Positions 52,333 to 58,939 of a DNA stretch of 64,000 nucleotides are shown one piece after another. The translations under genes and the position numbers were made by a program. How positions within the stretch are numbered: the first letter of the stretch is position 1; every line of letters starts with the position of its first letter. The stretch is taken from contig NZ_CM001514.1 in assembly GCF_000263715.2 (NCBI RefSeq), positions 5,890,498 through 5,954,497 on the forward strand. Reading direction: 5' to 3'. Origin of the DNA: Pseudomonas synxantha BG33R. GTDB taxonomy: Bacteria > Pseudomonadota > Gammaproteobacteria > Pseudomonadales > Pseudomonadaceae. The notes beneath the pieces were generated by a model. That model saw nothing but the letters and a program-made list of their open reading frames with translations. It did no database searches and had not been told where the DNA came from.

Positions 52333-53712
52333 GTGACTGCACTGACTCCTCTGCACACACTCTGGCTGACAGAAGCCGTGCGCCTGCGTGAAGAACACGC
52401 CGGCCCCCTGGAAGACCTGGAAGCCAACCGCCTGGCCCGCACGGCCGGGGGCGACCTGTCGACGCGTATTACCCAACGCGCCTTGCACCTGGCCGAGCGC
52501 GATGGCCTGACCGGTGCCCTCACGCGCTGGCTGCAAGGCGCGCGCCTGGCGCTGGTATTACTGGCGGTCGTGGCCGTGATCAGTGGCGCCGGTCTGGCGT
52601 TCGCGGCGCTGGGCAATGGCCTGACGCCGGTGAACGTGTTCTGGGCCCTGGGCAGCCTGCTCGGGTTGAACCTGATCCTGCTGGTCAGTTGGGCCCTGGG
52701 GCTGCTGTTTGCTGGCGAACACAGCGCCAGCCTTGGGCGCCTGTGGTTATGGCTCAGCGAGAAACTGGCGCGTGACGCCAAAGCCGCACAATTGGCGCCA
52801 GCGTTGCTGCTGTTGTTGCAACGGCAAAAACTCAATCGCTGGGCGGTGGGTGTGCTGGTCAACAGCCTGTGGCTGCTGGCCTTGCTCAGCGCCATGGTGA
52901 TCCTGCTGACCCTGCTCGCCACCCGTCGTTACGGCTTTGTGTGGGAAACCACCATTCTCGGCGCCGACACGTTTGTCGCCGTGACCCAGGCCCTCGGCAG
53001 CCTGCCCGCTTTGCTGGGTTTCAATGTGCCAACCGTCGACATGATCCGTGCCAGCGGCGATTCAGCCCTGAATATCGAAAACGCCCGCCAAGCCTGGGCC
53101 GCCTGGCTGGTGGGCGTATTGCTGGTCTACGGCCTGCTGCCCCGGTTGATCCTCGCCCTGTTCTGCCTGTGGCGCTGGAAAATCGGGCGTGCGGCGTTGC
53201 GCCTGGACCTCAACCTGCAAGGCTACACCCAACTGCGCGAACGCCTGATGCCCAGCAGCGAACGGCTTGGGGTCAACGATGCCGCGCCCGAACAGCTGCA
53301 CCACGTCAGCGGCGGCGTCAGCGAGATGGACAGCGACGGCGCCTTGCTGGTGGCCATCGAACTCGACGATCACCACCCGTGGCCACCCAAGCTGCCCAGC
53401 AACGTTAAGAACGCCGGCATCCTCGACAGCCGTGAATCGCGAAACAAGCTGCTGGAACAACTCAGCCGTTTCCCGCCCGCACGTCTGGTCATCGTCTGCG
53501 ACCCGCGCCGCTCGCCGGACCGTGGCAGCCTGGCGTTGATCGCCGAACTGGCGCGCAGCGCCACCGCCACCCGTGTATGGCTGCTGCAAGCGCCGCCCGG
53601 CCAGGGGCTGGACGCCGAACGCCTGGGTGACTGGCACACCGCACTGCAACAACTTGAGCTGCCCTTTGCCGATTGCGCACCACTGAACTGGCTGGAGACC
53701 GGGCATGACTAA
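52333..53712 (+). CDS. DUF2868 membrane protein
   Basis: A 459-residue membrane protein starting at GTG 52333. It has an N-terminal cytosolic part (about 1-65, 'LEANRLARTAGGDLSTRITQRA'), four membrane helices (two near 70-125, 'LLLRRRYG'-type bracket at about 180-200, one near 255-275), and a soluble C-terminal part after about 285 with 'LLVAIELDDHHPWP' and 'LVIVCDPRRSPDRGSLAL'. It matches the DUF2868 family found with DUF3482 GTPases. It overlaps the next gene by 8 bases. No function is known. Confidence 0.85.
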   Translation: MTALTPLHTLWLTEAVRLREEHAGPLEDLEANRLARTAGGDLSTRITQRALHLAERDGLTGALTRWLQGARLALVLLAVVAVISGAGLAFAALGNGLTPVNVFWALGSLLGLNLILLVSWALGLLFAGEHSASLGRLWLWLSEKLARDAKAAQLAPALLLLLQRQKLNRWAVGVLVNSLWLLALLSAMVILLTLLATRRYGFVWETTILGADTFVAVTQALGSLPALLGFNVPTVDMIRASGDSALNIENARQAWAAWLVGVLLVYGLLPRLILALFCLWRWKIGRAALRLDLNLQGYTQLRERLMPSSERLGVNDAAPEQLHHVSGGVSEMDSDGALLVAIELDDHHPWPPKLPSNVKNAGILDSRESRNKLLEQLSRFPPARLVIVCDPRRSPDRGSLALIAELARSATATRVWLLQAPPGQGLDAERLGDWHTALQQLELPFADCAPLNWLETGHD

Positions 53713-55072
53713 ACCGCTGAAACTCGCCGTGGTCGGCCACACCAATGTCGGCAAGACCTCACTGCTGCGCACCCTCACCCGTGACGTGGGCTTCGGCGAA
53801 GTCTCCCATCGCCCCAGCACCACGCGGCATGTCGAAGGCGCGCGCTTGTCGGTGGATGGCGAAGCCTTGCTGGAGCTGTACGACACGCCCGGCCTGGAAG
53901 ACGCCATCGCCCTGCTCGACTATCTGGAGCGCCTGGATCGCCCCGGTGAACGCCTGGACGGTCCCGCTCGCCTGGCGCGTTTTCTGGAGGGCAGCGAAGC
54001 ACGCCAGCGGTTCGAACAGGAAGCCAAGGTGTTGCGCCAACTGCTCGCCTCGGACGCCGGCCTGTATGTGATCGACGCCCGCGAGCCAGTACTGGCCAAG
54101 TACCGCGATGAGCTGCAAGTGCTGGCCAGTTGCGGCAAACCCTTGTTGCCGGTGCTCAACTTCGTCACCAGCAGCGACCAGCGCGAGCCGGACTGGCGCG
54201 AAGCCCTGGCCCGCCTCGGCCTGCACGCGCTGGTGCGCTTCGACAGCGTGGCGCCGCCGGAAGACGGTGAACGTCGCCTGTATGAAAGCCTGGCCCTGCT
54301 GCTGGAAAACTCCCGCCCGCAGTTGGAACGCCTGATCCTCGATCAAGAGGCCCAACGCCAGGCCCGCCAGCAAAGCGCCGCACGCTTGATCGCCGAACTG
54401 CTGATCGACTGCGCGGCCTGCCGTCGCAGCGTCGTCACCGAAGATGAGCAGCAAGCCATCGGCGATCTGCGCAAAGCGGTGCGCCAACGAGAACAAAAGT
54501 GTGTTGAAGCCCTGCTCAAACTGTTCGGCTTTCGCCCACAGGATGCCGCCGCCAGTGATCTACCGTTGCTTGATGGTCGCTGGGGCGATGACTTGTTCAA
54601 CCCCGAAACCCTCAAGCAACTTGGCGTGCGGGTCGGTGGCGGAATCGCCGCCGGTGCCGCTGCCGGTGCTGGCGTGGATCTCTTGGTCGGCGGCCTGACC
54701 CTCGGCGCCGCGGCCCTGGCCGGCGCTATCGCCGGTGGCGCCCTGCAAACCGCACGCAGCTATGGCAGCCGCCTGCTGGGCAAGATCAAAGGCCAACGCG
54801 AGCTGACCGTCGACGACAGCGTGCTGCGCCTGCTCGCCTTGCGCCAACGTCAGTTGCTCAAGGCCCTTAGTCTGCGCGGGCATGCGGCGATGCATAGCAT
54901 CAAGGTCGACACGCCCCAGGACAAAACCTGGCGCGAGGGCAAGCTGCCCGACGCACTGCACAAGGCCCGCGCCTATCCGCAATGGTCATCCCTCAACGCT
55001 CAGCCAAAGTTAAACCAGGCTGAACGTCAGGAGCAGCTTCAAGCATTGGCGCAGGCACTCAAGGATCAATAA
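53705..55072 (+). CDS. DUF3482 GTPase with glycine-zipper membrane segment
   Basis: A 455-residue Era/TrmE-like GTPase. G1 is 'GHTNVGKTSL' (residues 11-20) and G3 is 'DTPG' (60-63). The G4 place reads 'NFVTSSD', a departure from NKxD, so base specificity is open. Residues about 305-355 are a Gly/Ala-rich zipper ('GGGIAAGAAAGAGVDLL', 'LAGAIAGGALQ'), which may insert in membrane. A basic/helical C-terminus follows. It is translated with the DUF2868 membrane protein, and the two probably act together at the inner membrane. Confidence 0.87.
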   Translation: MTKPLKLAVVGHTNVGKTSLLRTLTRDVGFGEVSHRPSTTRHVEGARLSVDGEALLELYDTPGLEDAIALLDYLERLDRPGERLDGPARLARFLEGSEARQRFEQEAKVLRQLLASDAGLYVIDAREPVLAKYRDELQVLASCGKPLLPVLNFVTSSDQREPDWREALARLGLHALVRFDSVAPPEDGERRLYESLALLLENSRPQLERLILDQEAQRQARQQSAARLIAELLIDCAACRRSVVTEDEQQAIGDLRKAVRQREQKCVEALLKLFGFRPQDAAASDLPLLDGRWGDDLFNPETLKQLGVRVGGGIAAGAAAGAGVDLLVGGLTLGAAALAGAIAGGALQTARSYGSRLLGKIKGQRELTVDDSVLRLLALRQRQLLKALSLRGHAAMHSIKVDTPQDKTWREGKLPDALHKARAYPQWSSLNAQPKLNQAERQEQLQALAQALKDQ

Positions 55073-55113: not shown

Positions 55114-55689
55114 TCAAGAGGCTGGGATATCCAAGACCTTGACCTCAAAGGCTTCAGGCTCGTGCCAGCTGAACAACAAATAGAGCTCCGCCAACTGGTG
55201 GACCAAACCCCGATCAAGATCATCGATCACACCGTCATGATTGACATCGAAATGAATGTTCCATTCGAGCACTTGGTCGTTATCAAAGTCATAAGCGGCA
55301 TTCCACGCGACCAACGTATGAGGTTCGTTGATCCCGGCCTCCTCCTGCACGTGCAGACGCACAGTGTCGGGCGTACCGTCCTTGTAGAAATCTTCGGAGA
55401 AGATTTTCAGATAGCGCGTGGAAGCCGTCCCAGGATTAAACCAGTTGAGCTTCAAATAGGCAGAGGCAAACCTGTCCAACAACAGTTTATCGAGCCGGCT
55501 TTCCCGACCGTCATTCGTCACGTCCCCTCTGCTGTAGTCGATTTTTCCGTCAGTTGGGAAGTCGTAGGCAATGGCTTGTTTGACCAGGCTGTCCTGAATA
55601 CCCTGCGTGCTCTGGTAGAACTGAAGCACTACAGTATCCGCCCGGCCAGCCCCTGTATGGTCCTGTGCGAAAACTTTTAAATAGCGCAT
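55114..55689 (-). CDS. Dockerin-like Ca-loop repeat protein, copy 5 of the array
   Basis: A 191-residue protein of the tandem array. It shows the internal duplication most clearly: residues 1-85 ('RYLKVFAQD', 'ADTVVLQF', 'DVTNDGRESRLDKLLL', 'YLKLNWF') align with 92-176 ('RYLKIFSED', 'PDTVRLHV', 'DVNHDGVIDDLDRGLV', 'YLLFSWH'). Loops at 56-67 and 148-159 have the D-x-N-x-D-G...D spacing of EF-hand/dockerin loops. There is no signal peptide or membrane segment. The ATG at 55689 lies 13 bases inside the preceding gene. It is the last gene of the array. Function is not recognised; calcium binding is inferred. Confidence 0.8.
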   Translation of the reverse strand: MRYLKVFAQDHTGAGRADTVVLQFYQSTQGIQDSLVKQAIAYDFPTDGKIDYSRGDVTNDGRESRLDKLLLDRFASAYLKLNWFNPGTASTRYLKIFSEDFYKDGTPDTVRLHVQEEAGINEPHTLVAWNAAYDFDNDQVLEWNIHFDVNHDGVIDDLDRGLVHQLAELYLLFSWHEPEAFEVKVLDIPAS

Positions 55690-56270
55690 TGATCGACGCC
55701 TTGTTCAAATTTATTCAAACTCGGATGAGCGTGGTCATACCATTTGAACGCAAGGAAATTGATGCACATGGATCGGATCAACGCTGTGTCGTCTTTGTCA
55801 GCGACGCCGTTTCTGTCCACATCGCCAGCGGTAAATGACTCCAAGACACCGTTATGGTCGGTATCGTATCCGGCGGCCTGGTAAACAAGTACCGGTTTAC
55901 GCAGAGGGCTGTGGCGGCGATCCAGGAAGTTTAACTGCACGCCGTGGGGAAGACCGTTGGCTTCGTCTTGTATCGCCATCACCATGAGCGTACGTCGCCA
56001 ACTTTCACCCTTGTTAAACCAGTTCAGTCTCAGGAACGTATTGGCAAATGCCTTGAGCAACCAATAATCAACGACATCACTTTTACCGTCAAAGTTTATG
56101 TCGCCGGAACACTGAAAATCCACGATCTCATCGGCGTCAATATCCGTTGCGACAGCCTCATGATGCAACTCGTCAATGCCTGTGGAGTGACGTTGATAAA
56201 AATGCACAATGACCGTGTCGGCCACGCCATTGCCGCAACGGTCTTGGGCGGTCGCTTTCAAATAACGCAT
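55677..56270 (-). CDS. Dockerin-like Ca-loop repeat protein, copy 4 of the array
   Basis: A 197-residue paralogue. It begins 'MRYLKATAQDRCGNGVADTV', has loops 'DINFDGKSDVVD' (57-68) and 'DVDRNGVADKDD' (150-161), and the half-end motifs 'TFLRLNWF' and 'NFLAFKWY'. Residues 180-197 are an extra tail not found in the other copies; its DNA covers the ribosome site and start of copy 5, suggesting loss of the ancestral stop. It starts at ATG 56270 in a gap of about 300 bases that also holds a truncated copy. Function is not recognised. Confidence 0.8.
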   Translation of the reverse strand: MRYLKATAQDRCGNGVADTVIVHFYQRHSTGIDELHHEAVATDIDADEIVDFQCSGDINFDGKSDVVDYWLLKAFANTFLRLNWFNKGESWRRTLMVMAIQDEANGLPHGVQLNFLDRRHSPLRKPVLVYQAAGYDTDHNGVLESFTAGDVDRNGVADKDDTALIRSMCINFLAFKWYDHAHPSLNKFEQGVDQCAI

Positions 56271-56410
56271 TACGTACTCTCATTTTAATAGCTGAAGAAC
56301 CACAGAGAGTAATACTACTTACGTCCGCACCTCTAGCCGTCGACTCCCTATTTTTCGTATGAGTTTGCACTGGCTGTTATCAGTAGACGCAGGTCAACCG
56401 CTGTTATTTT

Positions 56411-56515
56411 TTACCATTTGAACGCAAGAAAACTGCTGCGCAGGGAACGGATCAGTTCTTTGTCGGCCTGATCGACCACACCGTTTTTGTCGATCTCGGT
56501 ATGGGTCAGCCGTTT
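56411..56515 (-). pseudogene. Truncated C-terminal remnant of an array paralogue
   Basis: On the minus strand the frame ending at TAA 56413-56411 reads 'KRLTHTEIDKNGVVDQADK' followed by 'ELIRSLRSSFLAFKW' and a stop. This matches the C-terminal part of the array proteins ('THSDIDHNGVADKADK', 'LLRTLCKSFLAFEW'). The frame is closed by a TAA at 56563-56561 and no start or N-terminal half is present. It is therefore a decayed sixth copy between copies 3 and 4. The rest of 56271-56586 holds no gene that I can see. Confidence 0.75.
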
Positions 56516-56586
56516 CAAAGATCCGCCCCCTATCCAGTGCTCAACGCCTACCGCCAAACGTTAAAAAGAGCAACAATCACTGATGG

Positions 56587-57120
56587 CTAACACCAATTAA
56601 ACTTGGTGTACAACTTGACCATGTGCTGCAGAGCGTCTCGATCTACCGTATCAAACAGGCCGTCGGGAAACTCTTCTTCATCCAGTCGCATCACCCCACG
56701 TTCAGTGTAGTCGCAAGCGGAGACGCTCATTACAAGTTTATTTTTGCCAATCATTGGTTTCTCACTCTGATAGAAATCCAATCGAATTTCAACAGGATTG
56801 GTTGCCTTATCGAAGCGGCTCACATAGAAATTTATCGATCGGTTTGACATTGCCGGTCGGCTGAGCCAACTCAGTTTCAATACACTGTTAGCAAAGTCCT
56901 TAAGCAGCTCCCTGTCCTGCTGGCCTGAGACAATACCATTACCGTCAATATCTCCAGTGACTTGATAGTCAACCAAACCGTCAGCCGTGATATCAACGGC
57001 TGTAGCTTTACGCATCACTTCATCGGGTAGTTTTGGATTACGCTGAATAAAAAATAGACTCACAGTATCTGTCTGGGCATTGGAACTCTGGTCCTTCACA
57101 ACAACTTTCAAATAACGCAC
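56587..57120 (-). CDS. Dockerin-like Ca-loop repeat protein, copy 3 of the array
   Basis: A 177-residue paralogue read from GTG 57120. That start gives the family N-terminus '(M)RYLKVVVKD' and has GGAG 8 bases upstream; an in-frame GTG two codons earlier sits too close to the ribosome site. The first half keeps the loop 'DIDGNGIVSGQQD' (57-69), but the second half is eroded, reading 'FPDGLFDTVDRD' where others have a full loop. Base composition is more AT-rich than in flanking genes. It ends 'YTKFNWC'. Function is not recognised. Confidence 0.78.
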   Translation of the reverse strand: MRYLKVVVKDQSSNAQTDTVSLFFIQRNPKLPDEVMRKATAVDITADGLVDYQVTGDIDGNGIVSGQQDRELLKDFANSVLKLSWLSRPAMSNRSINFYVSRFDKATNPVEIRLDFYQSEKPMIGKNKLVMSVSACDYTERGVMRLDEEEFPDGLFDTVDRDALQHMVKLYTKFNWC

Positions 57121-57209
57121 TCGCACTGCTCCTTTTATTTAGCGTTGCGCCTTACTTAAGGTCGCACCATCAACAATTCCAAACGCTTTAACTCAATGCT
57201 TAGCCAGGT

Positions 57210-57761
57210 TCAAACACTAGACTTGTTGTTGTACCACTGCATTGCCAGAAAAGATGTGCCCAGCGCCCGGATCCATTCCTTATCGGTTGTGTCGGCGATA
57301 CCGTTCCTATCGATATCACTGTTAGTAAAGGTCTCAAGCACACCATTACCGTCAGCGTCATAAGCAGCGGCATTGCACGTCAGGCTCTCCTTGCGAATAC
57401 CGCCCAACATATCATTGAGCTGCAACTTAATAGCATTAGGTTTGCCTTGCTTATCATAATGATCCACATACAGGGTCAAGGTACGTTGAGCGCTATCCCC
57501 TTTATTAAACCAGCCAAACTTTATAAACGTATTCGCAAATGCCTTGAGCAATTGTTTATCTCGAATAGTGCGCTGCCCATCACGATTGATATCGCCGGCG
57601 CACTGCACATCGATAACAGAGTCGCCGTCCATATCTACGGCCAGGGCCTCATGACTCAATTCATCCGGCTCGCCATCTCGACGCTCAAAAAAGTGCAATA
57701 TAACGGTGTCGACCTTTCCATTACCGCTTCGGTCTTGGGCGGTGGCTTTTAAGTAGCGCAT
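57210..57761 (-). CDS. Dockerin-like Ca-loop repeat protein, copy 2 of the array (most regular)
   Basis: A 183-residue paralogue and the best model of the family. Acidic loops lie at about residues 10-19 ('DRSGNGKVDT'), 43-51 ('DMDGDSVID'), 57-68 ('DINRDGQRTIRD'), 135-143 ('DADGNGVLE') and 149-160 ('DIDRNGIADTTD'). The helix after each main loop ends in 'FIKFGWFN' or 'FLAMQWYN'. Residues 1-86 and 92-178 are two copies of one unit. The ATG at 57761 has AAGGAG five bases upstream, inside the end of copy 1, with 2 bases between genes. No export signal. Function is not recognised. Confidence 0.82.
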   Translation of the reverse strand: MRYLKATAQDRSGNGKVDTVILHFFERRDGEPDELSHEALAVDMDGDSVIDVQCAGDINRDGQRTIRDKQLLKAFANTFIKFGWFNKGDSAQRTLTLYVDHYDKQGKPNAIKLQLNDMLGGIRKESLTCNAAAYDADGNGVLETFTNSDIDRNGIADTTDKEWIRALGTSFLAMQWYNNKSSV

Positions 57762-57763
57762 GG

Positions 57764-58291
57764 TCACTCCTTCGTTTCATACCACTCAAACGCCAGGAAG
57801 CTTTTGCACAACGTCCTGAGCAAGGCCTTGTCAGCCTTGTCGGCAACCCCGTTGTGATCGATATCACTATGGGTAAACGTCTCCAGCACTCCGTCGCTGT
57901 CGATGTCATAACCCATGGCGGTGGAGACCAGCAAAGCTTTCCCCCCAGACGCCTTGCTCTCTCGGAACTCCAGCGTCACCGAGGCTGGCCACCCCGCCTC
58001 GCCAAAATCATCCACGTACAGGACGAGCGAGCGCTGCCAATAGCTTGCCGTATTGAACCAATTGAGCTTCAAGAAGTTGTCGGCGAACGTCGCGATCCGT
58101 CGCTTATCCAGGTCCAGCGCACCGGCCTTGCTATGTCCTCCCCACTTCGCACCCAGGGTCATTTCCTGGCCGACGATATCGTAGATCAGCTCATCGGGGC
58201 GACCGGGCCGCTGCTGATAAAAGTGCAAAATGACCGTATCGGCATGACCGTTGCCGTGGAGGTCCTGGGCAATGGCTTTTAAGTAATGCAT
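57764..58291 (-). CDS. Dockerin-like Ca-loop repeat protein, copy 1 of the array (first half degenerate)
   Basis: A 175-residue paralogue, first in the transcription direction. It starts 'MHYLKAIAQDLHGNGHADTV' at ATG 58291, after an AAGGAAG site. The first-half acidic loops are replaced by an unrelated 'MTLGAKWGGHSKAGALDLDK' stretch (44-63), while the second half is intact with 'DIDSDGVLETFTHSDID' and 'HNGVADKADKALL' and ends 'FLAFEWYE'. It is 93 bases downstream of the PhnZ-like gene, without a clear terminator between. Function is not recognised. Confidence 0.8.
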   Translation of the reverse strand: MHYLKAIAQDLHGNGHADTVILHFYQQRPGRPDELIYDIVGQEMTLGAKWGGHSKAGALDLDKRRIATFADNFLKLNWFNTASYWQRSLVLYVDDFGEAGWPASVTLEFRESKASGGKALLVSTAMGYDIDSDGVLETFTHSDIDHNGVADKADKALLRTLCKSFLAFEWYETKE

Positions 58292-58384
58292 CCGTACTGC
58301 TTCCTTTAATTGAAGAAGCAAGCACCTTAATGAGCTGACAACAGGTACTCTAGGCGGCGTATCTGCGTATTGCGTGAGACCCCT

Positions 58385-58939
58385 CTACGTAGCCAGTAGC
58401 CTCGCAGCCTTGGACTTGAGTATTTGCAAGTCCAACACCGGCACCTGCGTTTCCTTGGCTTGCTCGTCCCAGTGGCGCATGCGCAGGCTGATCTGGCACA
58501 GCGGATCCTGCTCAAATATCTGGGCCTCCTCGGCCGTCATCACGCCGCCCTGATATCCCAGGGTACGCCGGCTGGCCTCACTCAAGCCCGCGTAATAGCC
58601 CGGCTGGCTGAAGGTCAGGTAACGCTTGGCCGGTACGTGATATTCCACCAACTTGGCCATGCGTTCGCTAAAGCCTGCACGGCGCAAGTAATCCGCGCCC
58701 AGCCGCTCATGGCTGACCACGCCATAACCGCCCATGTTCTCGGCGCCCTGGCCGCAGAGATGGCCGATGTCGTGGAAGAACGCCGCCAGCACCACCTCAT
58801 CATCAAAACCTTCGGCCATGGCCAACTGCGCGGCCTGGGACATGTGCTCGATCTGCGACACCGGTTCGCCGATGTAATCGGCCGTGCCATGTTGTTCGTA
58901 CAAGCCAAACACTTGGGCAATCGCCTGTTCCGGGCTCAT
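58385..58939 (-). CDS. PhnZ-like HD-domain phosphonate oxygenase
   Basis: A 184-residue HD-domain protein of the phosphonate-operon HDIG family that includes PhnZ, a mixed-valent di-iron oxygenase cleaving hydroxylated aminoethylphosphonate. The metal motif 'AFFHDIGHL' is present, and 'DYIGEPVSQIEH' gives a Tyr-x-x-Glu pair (Y22, E25) equivalent to PhnZ Y24/E27, which bind iron and the substrate amine. The ATG at 58939 overlaps the oxidoreductase stop by one base. A PhnY-type hydroxylase is not in the window; it may lie elsewhere. Confidence 0.85.
   Translation of the reverse strand: MSPEQAIAQVFGLYEQHGTADYIGEPVSQIEHMSQAAQLAMAEGFDDEVVLAAFFHDIGHLCGQGAENMGGYGVVSHERLGADYLRRAGFSERMAKLVEYHVPAKRYLTFSQPGYYAGLSEASRRTLGYQGGVMTAEEAQIFEQDPLCQISLRMRHWDEQAKETQVPVLDLQILKSKAARLLAT

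Follow-up and report, generated by a model that had tools for sequence, protein, structure and literature searches.

What do five neighbouring, related genes do in a bacterium when nothing beside them explains their function? We examined this question for a tandem array at positions 55114-58291 of a 64,000-nucleotide stretch of Pseudomonas synxantha BG33R (contig NZ_CM001514.1, positions 5,890,498 to 5,954,497 of the forward strand), hereafter the window, whose numbering is used for the array and its borders. The original prediction, made from this DNA alone, had described the products as dockerin-like calcium-loop proteins. We found that they belong to a real, unnamed protein family, in which a known calcium loop stands in an unusual arrangement. 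The source genome is one 6.3-Mb contig, and the nearest named relative at the array locus is P. antarctica, with 85% identity in the best segment.

The array and its two-unit proteins

Open reading frames, alignment and a search of the source genome all confirmed five neighbouring, related minus-strand genes with products of 175-197 residues. With copy 4 as query, the other four copies were recovered at expectation values (E) of 9.8e-58 to 3.6e-25 (one extra match, at E 0.47, was disregarded), and their relatedness is far above chance. The alignment of the five copies had 23 invariant columns, and identity to copy 1 was 31-37%. Copies were numbered by coordinate, copy 5 being the first in the direction of transcription.

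55114..55689, minus strand: copy 1, 191 residues; N-half loop with Thr at position 3, C-half loop intact; 13-base overlap with copy 2
55677..56270, minus strand: copy 2, 197 residues; both loops intact
56411..56530, minus strand: decayed sixth copy, about the last 40 residues of a C-terminal half, with loop and helix (E 8.6e-7 and 1.7e-8)
56587..57120, minus strand: copy 3, 177 residues, GTG start; C-half loop degenerate
57210..57761, minus strand: copy 4, 183 residues, ATG start; both loops intact; used for the structure model
57282..57317, minus strand: 12-residue EF/dockerin-type loop of the copy 4 C-half, residues 149-160
57558..57593, minus strand: 12-residue EF/dockerin-type loop of the copy 4 N-half, residues 57-68
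57764..58291, minus strand: copy 5, 175 residues, ATG start; N-half loop lost, C-half loop intact

The open reading frame listed for copy 3 starts two codons before the GTG used here, a GTG is present two codons ahead of the ATG of copy 4, and a TTG was found 30 bases further out than the ATG of copy 5. The 13-base overlap (55677-55689) and the 2-base gap (57762-57763) had been correctly predicted; the two remaining gaps are of 316 and 89 bases. The decayed copy sits between copies 2 and 3, and G+C is lower in the array (45-56%) than in five neighbour genes (58-66%). Neither of these features, nor the internal twofold repeat of the proteins, had been noticed in the original prediction.

This repeat was evident when profiles of the N-terminal and C-terminal halves were aligned with each other (hhalign, E 8.6e-25 over 85 columns; 20 of 56 sequences per side, with the degenerate N-half of copy 5 and C-half of copy 3 excluded), so that each protein comprises two homologous half-units. 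Thinning at 90% identity left 79 sequences, of which the 56 proteins are those with 165 residues or more, fragments and fused doubles having been removed. Based on their alignment, AlphaFold2 modelled copy 4 with a predicted local distance difference test (pLDDT) of 93.1 and a predicted template modelling score of 0.88. The first half of the model has strands at residues 2-10, 19-26, 34-42 and 52-54 and a helix at 66-82, and the second has strands at 93-102, 108-118 and 125-134, a two-residue bridge at 144-145 and a helix at 158-173. The predicted order of the unit therefore occurs twice: three long strands, a short fourth one (which is the mere bridge in the second half), the 12-residue loop and, directly after it, the helix. 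The two loops of copy 4 (residues 57-68 and 149-160) are 92 residues apart. We saw no indication of unrelated folds between copies, whose sequences are similar enough for one fold, copy 4 alone having been modelled.

The motifs proposed earlier held for the most part. Tyr-Leu-Lys, Asp10 and Asp-Thr-Val of the N-terminal motif were invariant in all five copies, but its Gly was missing in copy 3; the Trp at the end of each half was present in both halves of every copy. The calcium loops were intact in 8 of the 10 half-units by a loose rule and in 7 by a strict one, but those of the copy 3 C-half and the copy 5 N-half were degenerate. By the loose rule, 45 of the 56 two-unit proteins kept the N-half loop, 46 the C-half loop and 35 both, and none had lost both; about 2 of 56 would be expected if the losses were independent, so that this absence is no more than suggestive. 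A shorter subfamily (22 of the 79 sequences, 139-151 residues) had no N-half loops, and in the alignment rows inspected its C-half loop was retained.

Hydropathy and inspection by eye (no dedicated predictor was used) revealed neither a signal peptide nor a membrane segment in the five copies, in agreement with the original prediction. The highest 19-residue Kyte-Doolittle mean was 0.73, the first predicted strand of copy 4 begins at residue 2, and judging from these sequences the proteins are likely cytoplasmic. All five are acidic (isoelectric points of 4.65-5.45).

Searches for a known family gave partial matches, none of which explained the whole protein. No NCBIfam model matched the five copies, no Pfam model did so above its cut-off, and the copies of Pfam, NCBIfam, PHROGs and PADLOC that we tried held no model of the family's own; in PADLOC two of six proteins had a match, at E 0.004. 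Foldseek searches of PDB and of viral models returned zero matches at E 0.001. A sequence search of solved structures gave short matches centred on the loop, dockerins first, and DUF6802 (PF20615) matched the loop region only (residues 134-163 of the copy 5 open reading frame, 17.3 bits, cut-off 27). In the open-access literature, searched by titles and abstract openings, we found no paper on these proteins, most subscription papers being outside that scope.

The family shares with dockerin type I (PF00404) the 12-residue loop D-x-[DN]-x-[DN]-G-x5-D with a helix at once after it. Dockerin type I consists of two adjacent loop-helix repeats in a domain of about 60-70 residues, whereas the loop-helix pieces of the present family are separated by those 92 residues and each of them ends a strand unit; a signal peptide was likewise not seen. 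The term 'dockerin-like' was thus right for the loop type but not for the unit, which is strand-loop-helix and not a dockerin repeat. Dockerin_1 reached 18.9 bits in copy 1 (three stretches, the best at residues 35-73) and 15.3 in copy 2, and none of the five copies attained its cut-off of 22.9 bits. One of 10 relatives scanned passed it, with 24.2 bits on a stretch of 18 residues; a precomputed PF00404 label was attached to 10 of 63 database relatives, and a PF00404 search of the source genome gave 0 matches.

In the canonical EF-hand, too, the loop has 12 residues, with ligands at positions 1, 3, 5 and 12 and Gly at 6, as in the intact loops counted above; the difference is that in both predicted models (copy 4 and the single-unit protein described below) a helix stands only after the loop and none before it. 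EfhP (PA4107) of P. aeruginosa, to which PMC9132961 and PMC4053335 ascribe two canonical EF-hand motifs, is also a Pseudomonas protein with calcium loops, and we set it beside the family by description alone. Strand-loop-helix is among the Dx[DN]xDG calcium-motif contexts listed by Rigden et al. 2011 (PMC3123361), and the present family was not seen in the passages of that article consulted.

Distribution, genomic slot and lineages

Clear members of the family were confined to Pseudomonas in the searches made. A scan of genome contigs recovered 55 loci, all in this genus, and the family was present in 55 of 298 whole genomes of the genus. It was found in 5 of 198 genomes drawn from the taxonomic family, every one Pseudomonas, and in 1 of 369 drawn from the class, namely the source genome (0 of the 368 others). 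Of 224 candidates that residues 1-180 of copy 1 drew from a protein database, 63 proteins had E values of 0.01 or lower; they were labelled 'hypothetical protein', and the organism was Pseudomonas wherever named. Candidate homologues outside the genus were rejected: the half-unit model gave 7 matches at E 0.01 or better in 398 genomes of the phylum, two of them in Pseudomonas, and the other five (E 2.5e-4 to 0.01) spanned 21-56 positions about the loop and lay within other frames. Copy 4 had no match in phage or plasmid records and the family alignment found no relative in viral contigs, and a phage, plasmid or viral origin is unsupported by those searches.

Most members occupy one genomic slot, with the following borders in the window:

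53705..55072, plus strand: DUF3482 GTPase-type gene (PF11981, 378.2 bits; PF01926)
58385..58939, minus strand: HD-domain gene (PF01966)

The HD gene ends what we take, from its neighbours, to be an aminoethylphosphonate-type cluster. The family gene adjoined the DUF3482 gene in 47 of 51 contexts, i.e. the window and 50 named loci (the other five of the 55 had no called family gene in the context listing); the exceptions were L057, L059, L060 and L062. We also inspected 30 loci around the DUF3482 gene, drawn from 59 genomes searched for it: in 16 the HD gene lay 63-264 bases away and the family gene was absent, 10 contained family genes, and 4 had neither HD gene nor family genes in the stretch examined. 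Other sites, with neighbours identified by eye, were beside a YkgJ-like gene and typA (L134, L137), a pxpABC-like operon and a MoxR-like gene (L129-L133, L135) and a sensor-type gene (L128). The family is therefore not peculiar to the array: across Pseudomonas its genes stand singly, in pairs or in triplets, and fused doubles and single-unit proteins occur as well. We counted one copy in 43 named loci, two in 9 and three in 3 (n=55; a gene of 130-260 residues was taken as one copy and a fused double as two, and one broken gene was included), and the five of the window are the largest number seen. L061 and L066 contained a fused double gene.

As the original prediction had it, no neighbour explains the function of the array. 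A functional link to the phosphonate-type genes is disfavoured, because L044 and L064 have a family gene beside DUF3482 with those genes absent among the six listed upstream, and because the border genes stand alone in the 16 loci mentioned above. At L068, which also has a family gene, the HD gene was kept with other genes in between, and the phosphonate-type cluster was interrupted. As these three loci differ in the cluster, the whole neighbourhood varies between strains.

We then placed the five copies in a maximum-likelihood tree of the 56 proteins, on which the label 'window' required five changes. Copies 1, 2 and 4 each grouped first with one other strain (support 100/98, 99/90 and 100/96, respectively), copy 3 with four others (100/99) and copy 5 with three (98/92; members from L071, L026 and L039). 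Since these are five separate supported groups shared with other strains, the array is not a recent local amplification and consists of old lineages held by strains in differing subsets. The family genes are under purifying selection: the ratio of nonsynonymous to synonymous substitution rates (dN/dS, NG86) could be computed for 11 of 14 family pairs and lay at 0.10-0.29, values that are rough as dS exceeded 1 in seven of the 11.

Single-unit relatives and upstream elements

The family and half-unit models also led to relatives of about 80-100 residues in other Pseudomonas, which consist of a single unit. One such protein used as query matched in 13 of 149 genomes, and an alignment of 18 sequences in 79 of 249, including matches to two-unit genes. 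The single-unit profile aligned with that of the C-terminal half at E 4.6e-11 (12 of the 18 sequences) and with that of the two-unit family at E 1.6e-10 (all 18). AlphaFold2 modelled one single-unit protein, from 12 single-unit sequences alone, with a pLDDT of 88.6; its strands at residues 5-12, 21-28, 31-40 and 47-50 and helix at 64-78 follow the same order as a half of the two-unit protein. The strict loop was present in 11 of the 12 sequences; the other six were inspected by eye, and five had it and one (L149:1846-2076) did not.

Single-unit genes also form clusters, with three in L144 and two singles with one double in L145. The latter double (L145:677-1237, 186 residues) is of the single-unit type, lies beside single-unit genes and is perhaps a separate second fusion. 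By eye, single-unit genes were located between or beside radical-SAM and cytochrome c genes in L097, L104, L138, L139, L144, L145, L148 and L150, which marks another hot spot of the superfamily, where as many as three diverged copies cluster.

Many two-unit genes are preceded by a conserved stretch that starts 80-92 bases before the start codon. It comprises box A (TCYTACR), then box B (CTAGAG, CTGGAG, CAGAG or ATGGA types), in most cases 26-28 bases further on, and box C, a -10-like box of CTA type mostly 22-24 bases past box B. Motif finding at width 70 in 76 upstream stretches, among which orthologues are not independent, reached a log-likelihood of 954, against 201-213 in three shuffles that had fewer restarts; at width 50, the coding end of the HD gene was chosen instead. 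Two sites lie in the array, both of them part of a 40-site training set:

58313..58384, minus strand: 5' element ahead of copy 5, with TCYTACR-like box A, box B and -10-like box C; 32.7 bits
56296..56367, minus strand: second, weaker 5' element ahead of copy 2; 18.9 bits

The site ahead of copy 2 may allow a second transcription start. We tested a matrix built from 34 of the 40 picked rows, excluding those known from other slots (the slot of some rows was unchecked), on 13 genes at other slots, which represent about four independent groups. The best site lay at -89 to -94 in all 13, and in none of 10 single-unit genes. By score alone, 6 of the 13 were matched by at most 5 of 100 shuffles, and L128 and L130 were no better than shuffles; it is the position of the site that speaks for the element. 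The element suggests that the two-unit genes travel with their own promoter.

A model of the element, R1, was based on 40 stretches chosen, out of 97 upstream ones, because they contain the boxes. In the source genome it matched the two array sites of its training set and, among the 150 of 365 candidates that were scored, one weak site (E 0.34) that lies ahead of a C4 antisense RNA (RF01695). We dropped the idea of a regulator common to the family and C4 RNAs, R1 matching only that one of 31 C4-type loci. The C4 RNA itself is very common in Pseudomonas, with 20 matches in the source genome (L185:1642-1726, from source-genome positions 526517-529576); it was present in 36 of 40 genus genomes, in 35 of them with a score above the curated cut-off, and four had more than 40 matches, against 0 of 14 control genomes. 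A pattern search for the element recovered neither array site; it hit a single site elsewhere, and two in the reversed control. Motifs for AlgU, RpoN, ANR, Crc, PhoB and Fur sites showed no clear excess in the 97 upstream stretches. GGA-type motifs were in excess there (18 vs a shuffled mean of 4.5; 70 vs 48), as ribosome-binding sites would also produce.

Six single-unit genes (L140, L141, L142, L143, L144, L145) had, by eye, an upstream palindrome CTGTCA-N4-TGACAG followed by TAGA. The palindrome is imperfect in L141, differs from the 5' element found ahead of two-unit genes, and is likely the operator or promoter of some regulator.

Possible roles of the family

Our tentative proposal, which may well turn out wrong, is that the two-unit proteins are a strain-variable set of cytoplasmic, calcium-locked binding platforms, each a partner-specific variant. 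Going by the predicted fold, the two units would share one sheet carrying two helices, and each helix would be held on this sheet by a calcium ion bound in the 12-residue loop that precedes it. A ligand, most likely a protein or a peptide, would then bind to the surface between the helices or beside them. Single-unit relatives would need to pair as homodimers to form the same platform, and the two-unit proteins would represent fused pairs of single units. Strains would keep different subsets of old variants because each variant would have its own partner.

A doubtful alternative, though one to be taken seriously, is that the proteins are cytoplasmic calcium buffers or sensors, like calerythrin or calmodulin-like proteins, whose loops would bind rising calcium with a shape change or for storage, the copies adding capacity or a range of affinities. 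The conserved loops, of which each of the 56 two-unit proteins keeps at least one, would suit such a role, as would the acidity of the five copies and the lack of a visible signal peptide; calerythrin's family is described as intracellular calcium buffers in PMC10574481. However, the predicted strand-loop-helix is not the helix-loop-helix of sensors, the conserved sheet makes up most of each unit and goes beyond a buffer's needs, and presence in only 55 of 298 genomes speaks against a general calcium role.

We consider it unlikely that the array is a collection of orphan immunity proteins or antitoxins, each copy blocking a toxin from rival strains. The preferred slot, the strain-variable, diverged and constrained paralogues with decayed remnants, the small soluble proteins without signal peptide and the low G+C would all fit. 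On the other hand, no toxin-like neighbour was found by eye in the 51 contexts and 10 fetched regions (no toxin-family scan was made), the phage, plasmid and viral-contig searches were empty, and PADLOC gave nothing beyond its two matches; moreover, the dN/dS values indicate constraint and not rapid change. Export by an unrecognised route, with calcium outside the cell folding the proteins to act at the cell surface or in a biofilm matrix, is distinctly improbable: the five copies show neither a signal peptide nor a membrane segment, and no recurrent transport-gene neighbour was seen by eye, save the phosphonate-type transporter of the main slot. We give almost no credence to true dockerins docking to cohesins, since the weak Dockerin_1 matches, the one relative above cut-off and the PF00404 labels are outweighed by a layout with predicted strands between distant loop-helix pieces, by scores below cut-off in all five copies and by the absence of a visible signal peptide and of PF00404 matches in the source genome; here the original prediction had already judged correctly that these are not dockerins in the cellulosomal sense.

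The platform proposal has a bolder form, which we regard as a long shot. Pseudomonas would have its own family of calcium-locked recognition platforms resembling those of the major histocompatibility complex (MHC), made of pairing single units and fused two-unit proteins, carried as self-contained cassettes, each with its own promoter, and maintained as repertoires that differ by strain, each variant presenting or capturing a different peptide or protein. The likeness to MHC class I alpha1-alpha2 and class II beta1 lies in the order of elements only (8% and 6% identity, respectively, with noise-level scores). MHC has no calcium loops, and we do not claim kinship with it.

The family matters in three respects. 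First, it places a dockerin/EF-type loop in a strand-loop-helix unit of apparently cytoplasmic proteins; inside cells, the abstract of PMC3123361 names only the EF-hand and the calcium blade as occurring in large numbers, other contexts of the motif being said not to be numerous. Second, the single-unit and two-unit forms offer a clean test of how a paired fold originates from one unit. Third, as a strain-variable array occupies a slot that is empty in relatives, its function is testable by comparing natural strains.

Finally, two isolated cases were observed. At a unique location (L062:5024-6783), two genes that by eye resemble those of an AAA-type ATPase and a DUF4276-like partner lie about 1.2 kb from a family gene. 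The 189-residue sequence P0063, from a 1157-base contig, matches copy 1 in its first part, is annotated as PF07291 in the rest, and is probably chimeric or mis-assembled.

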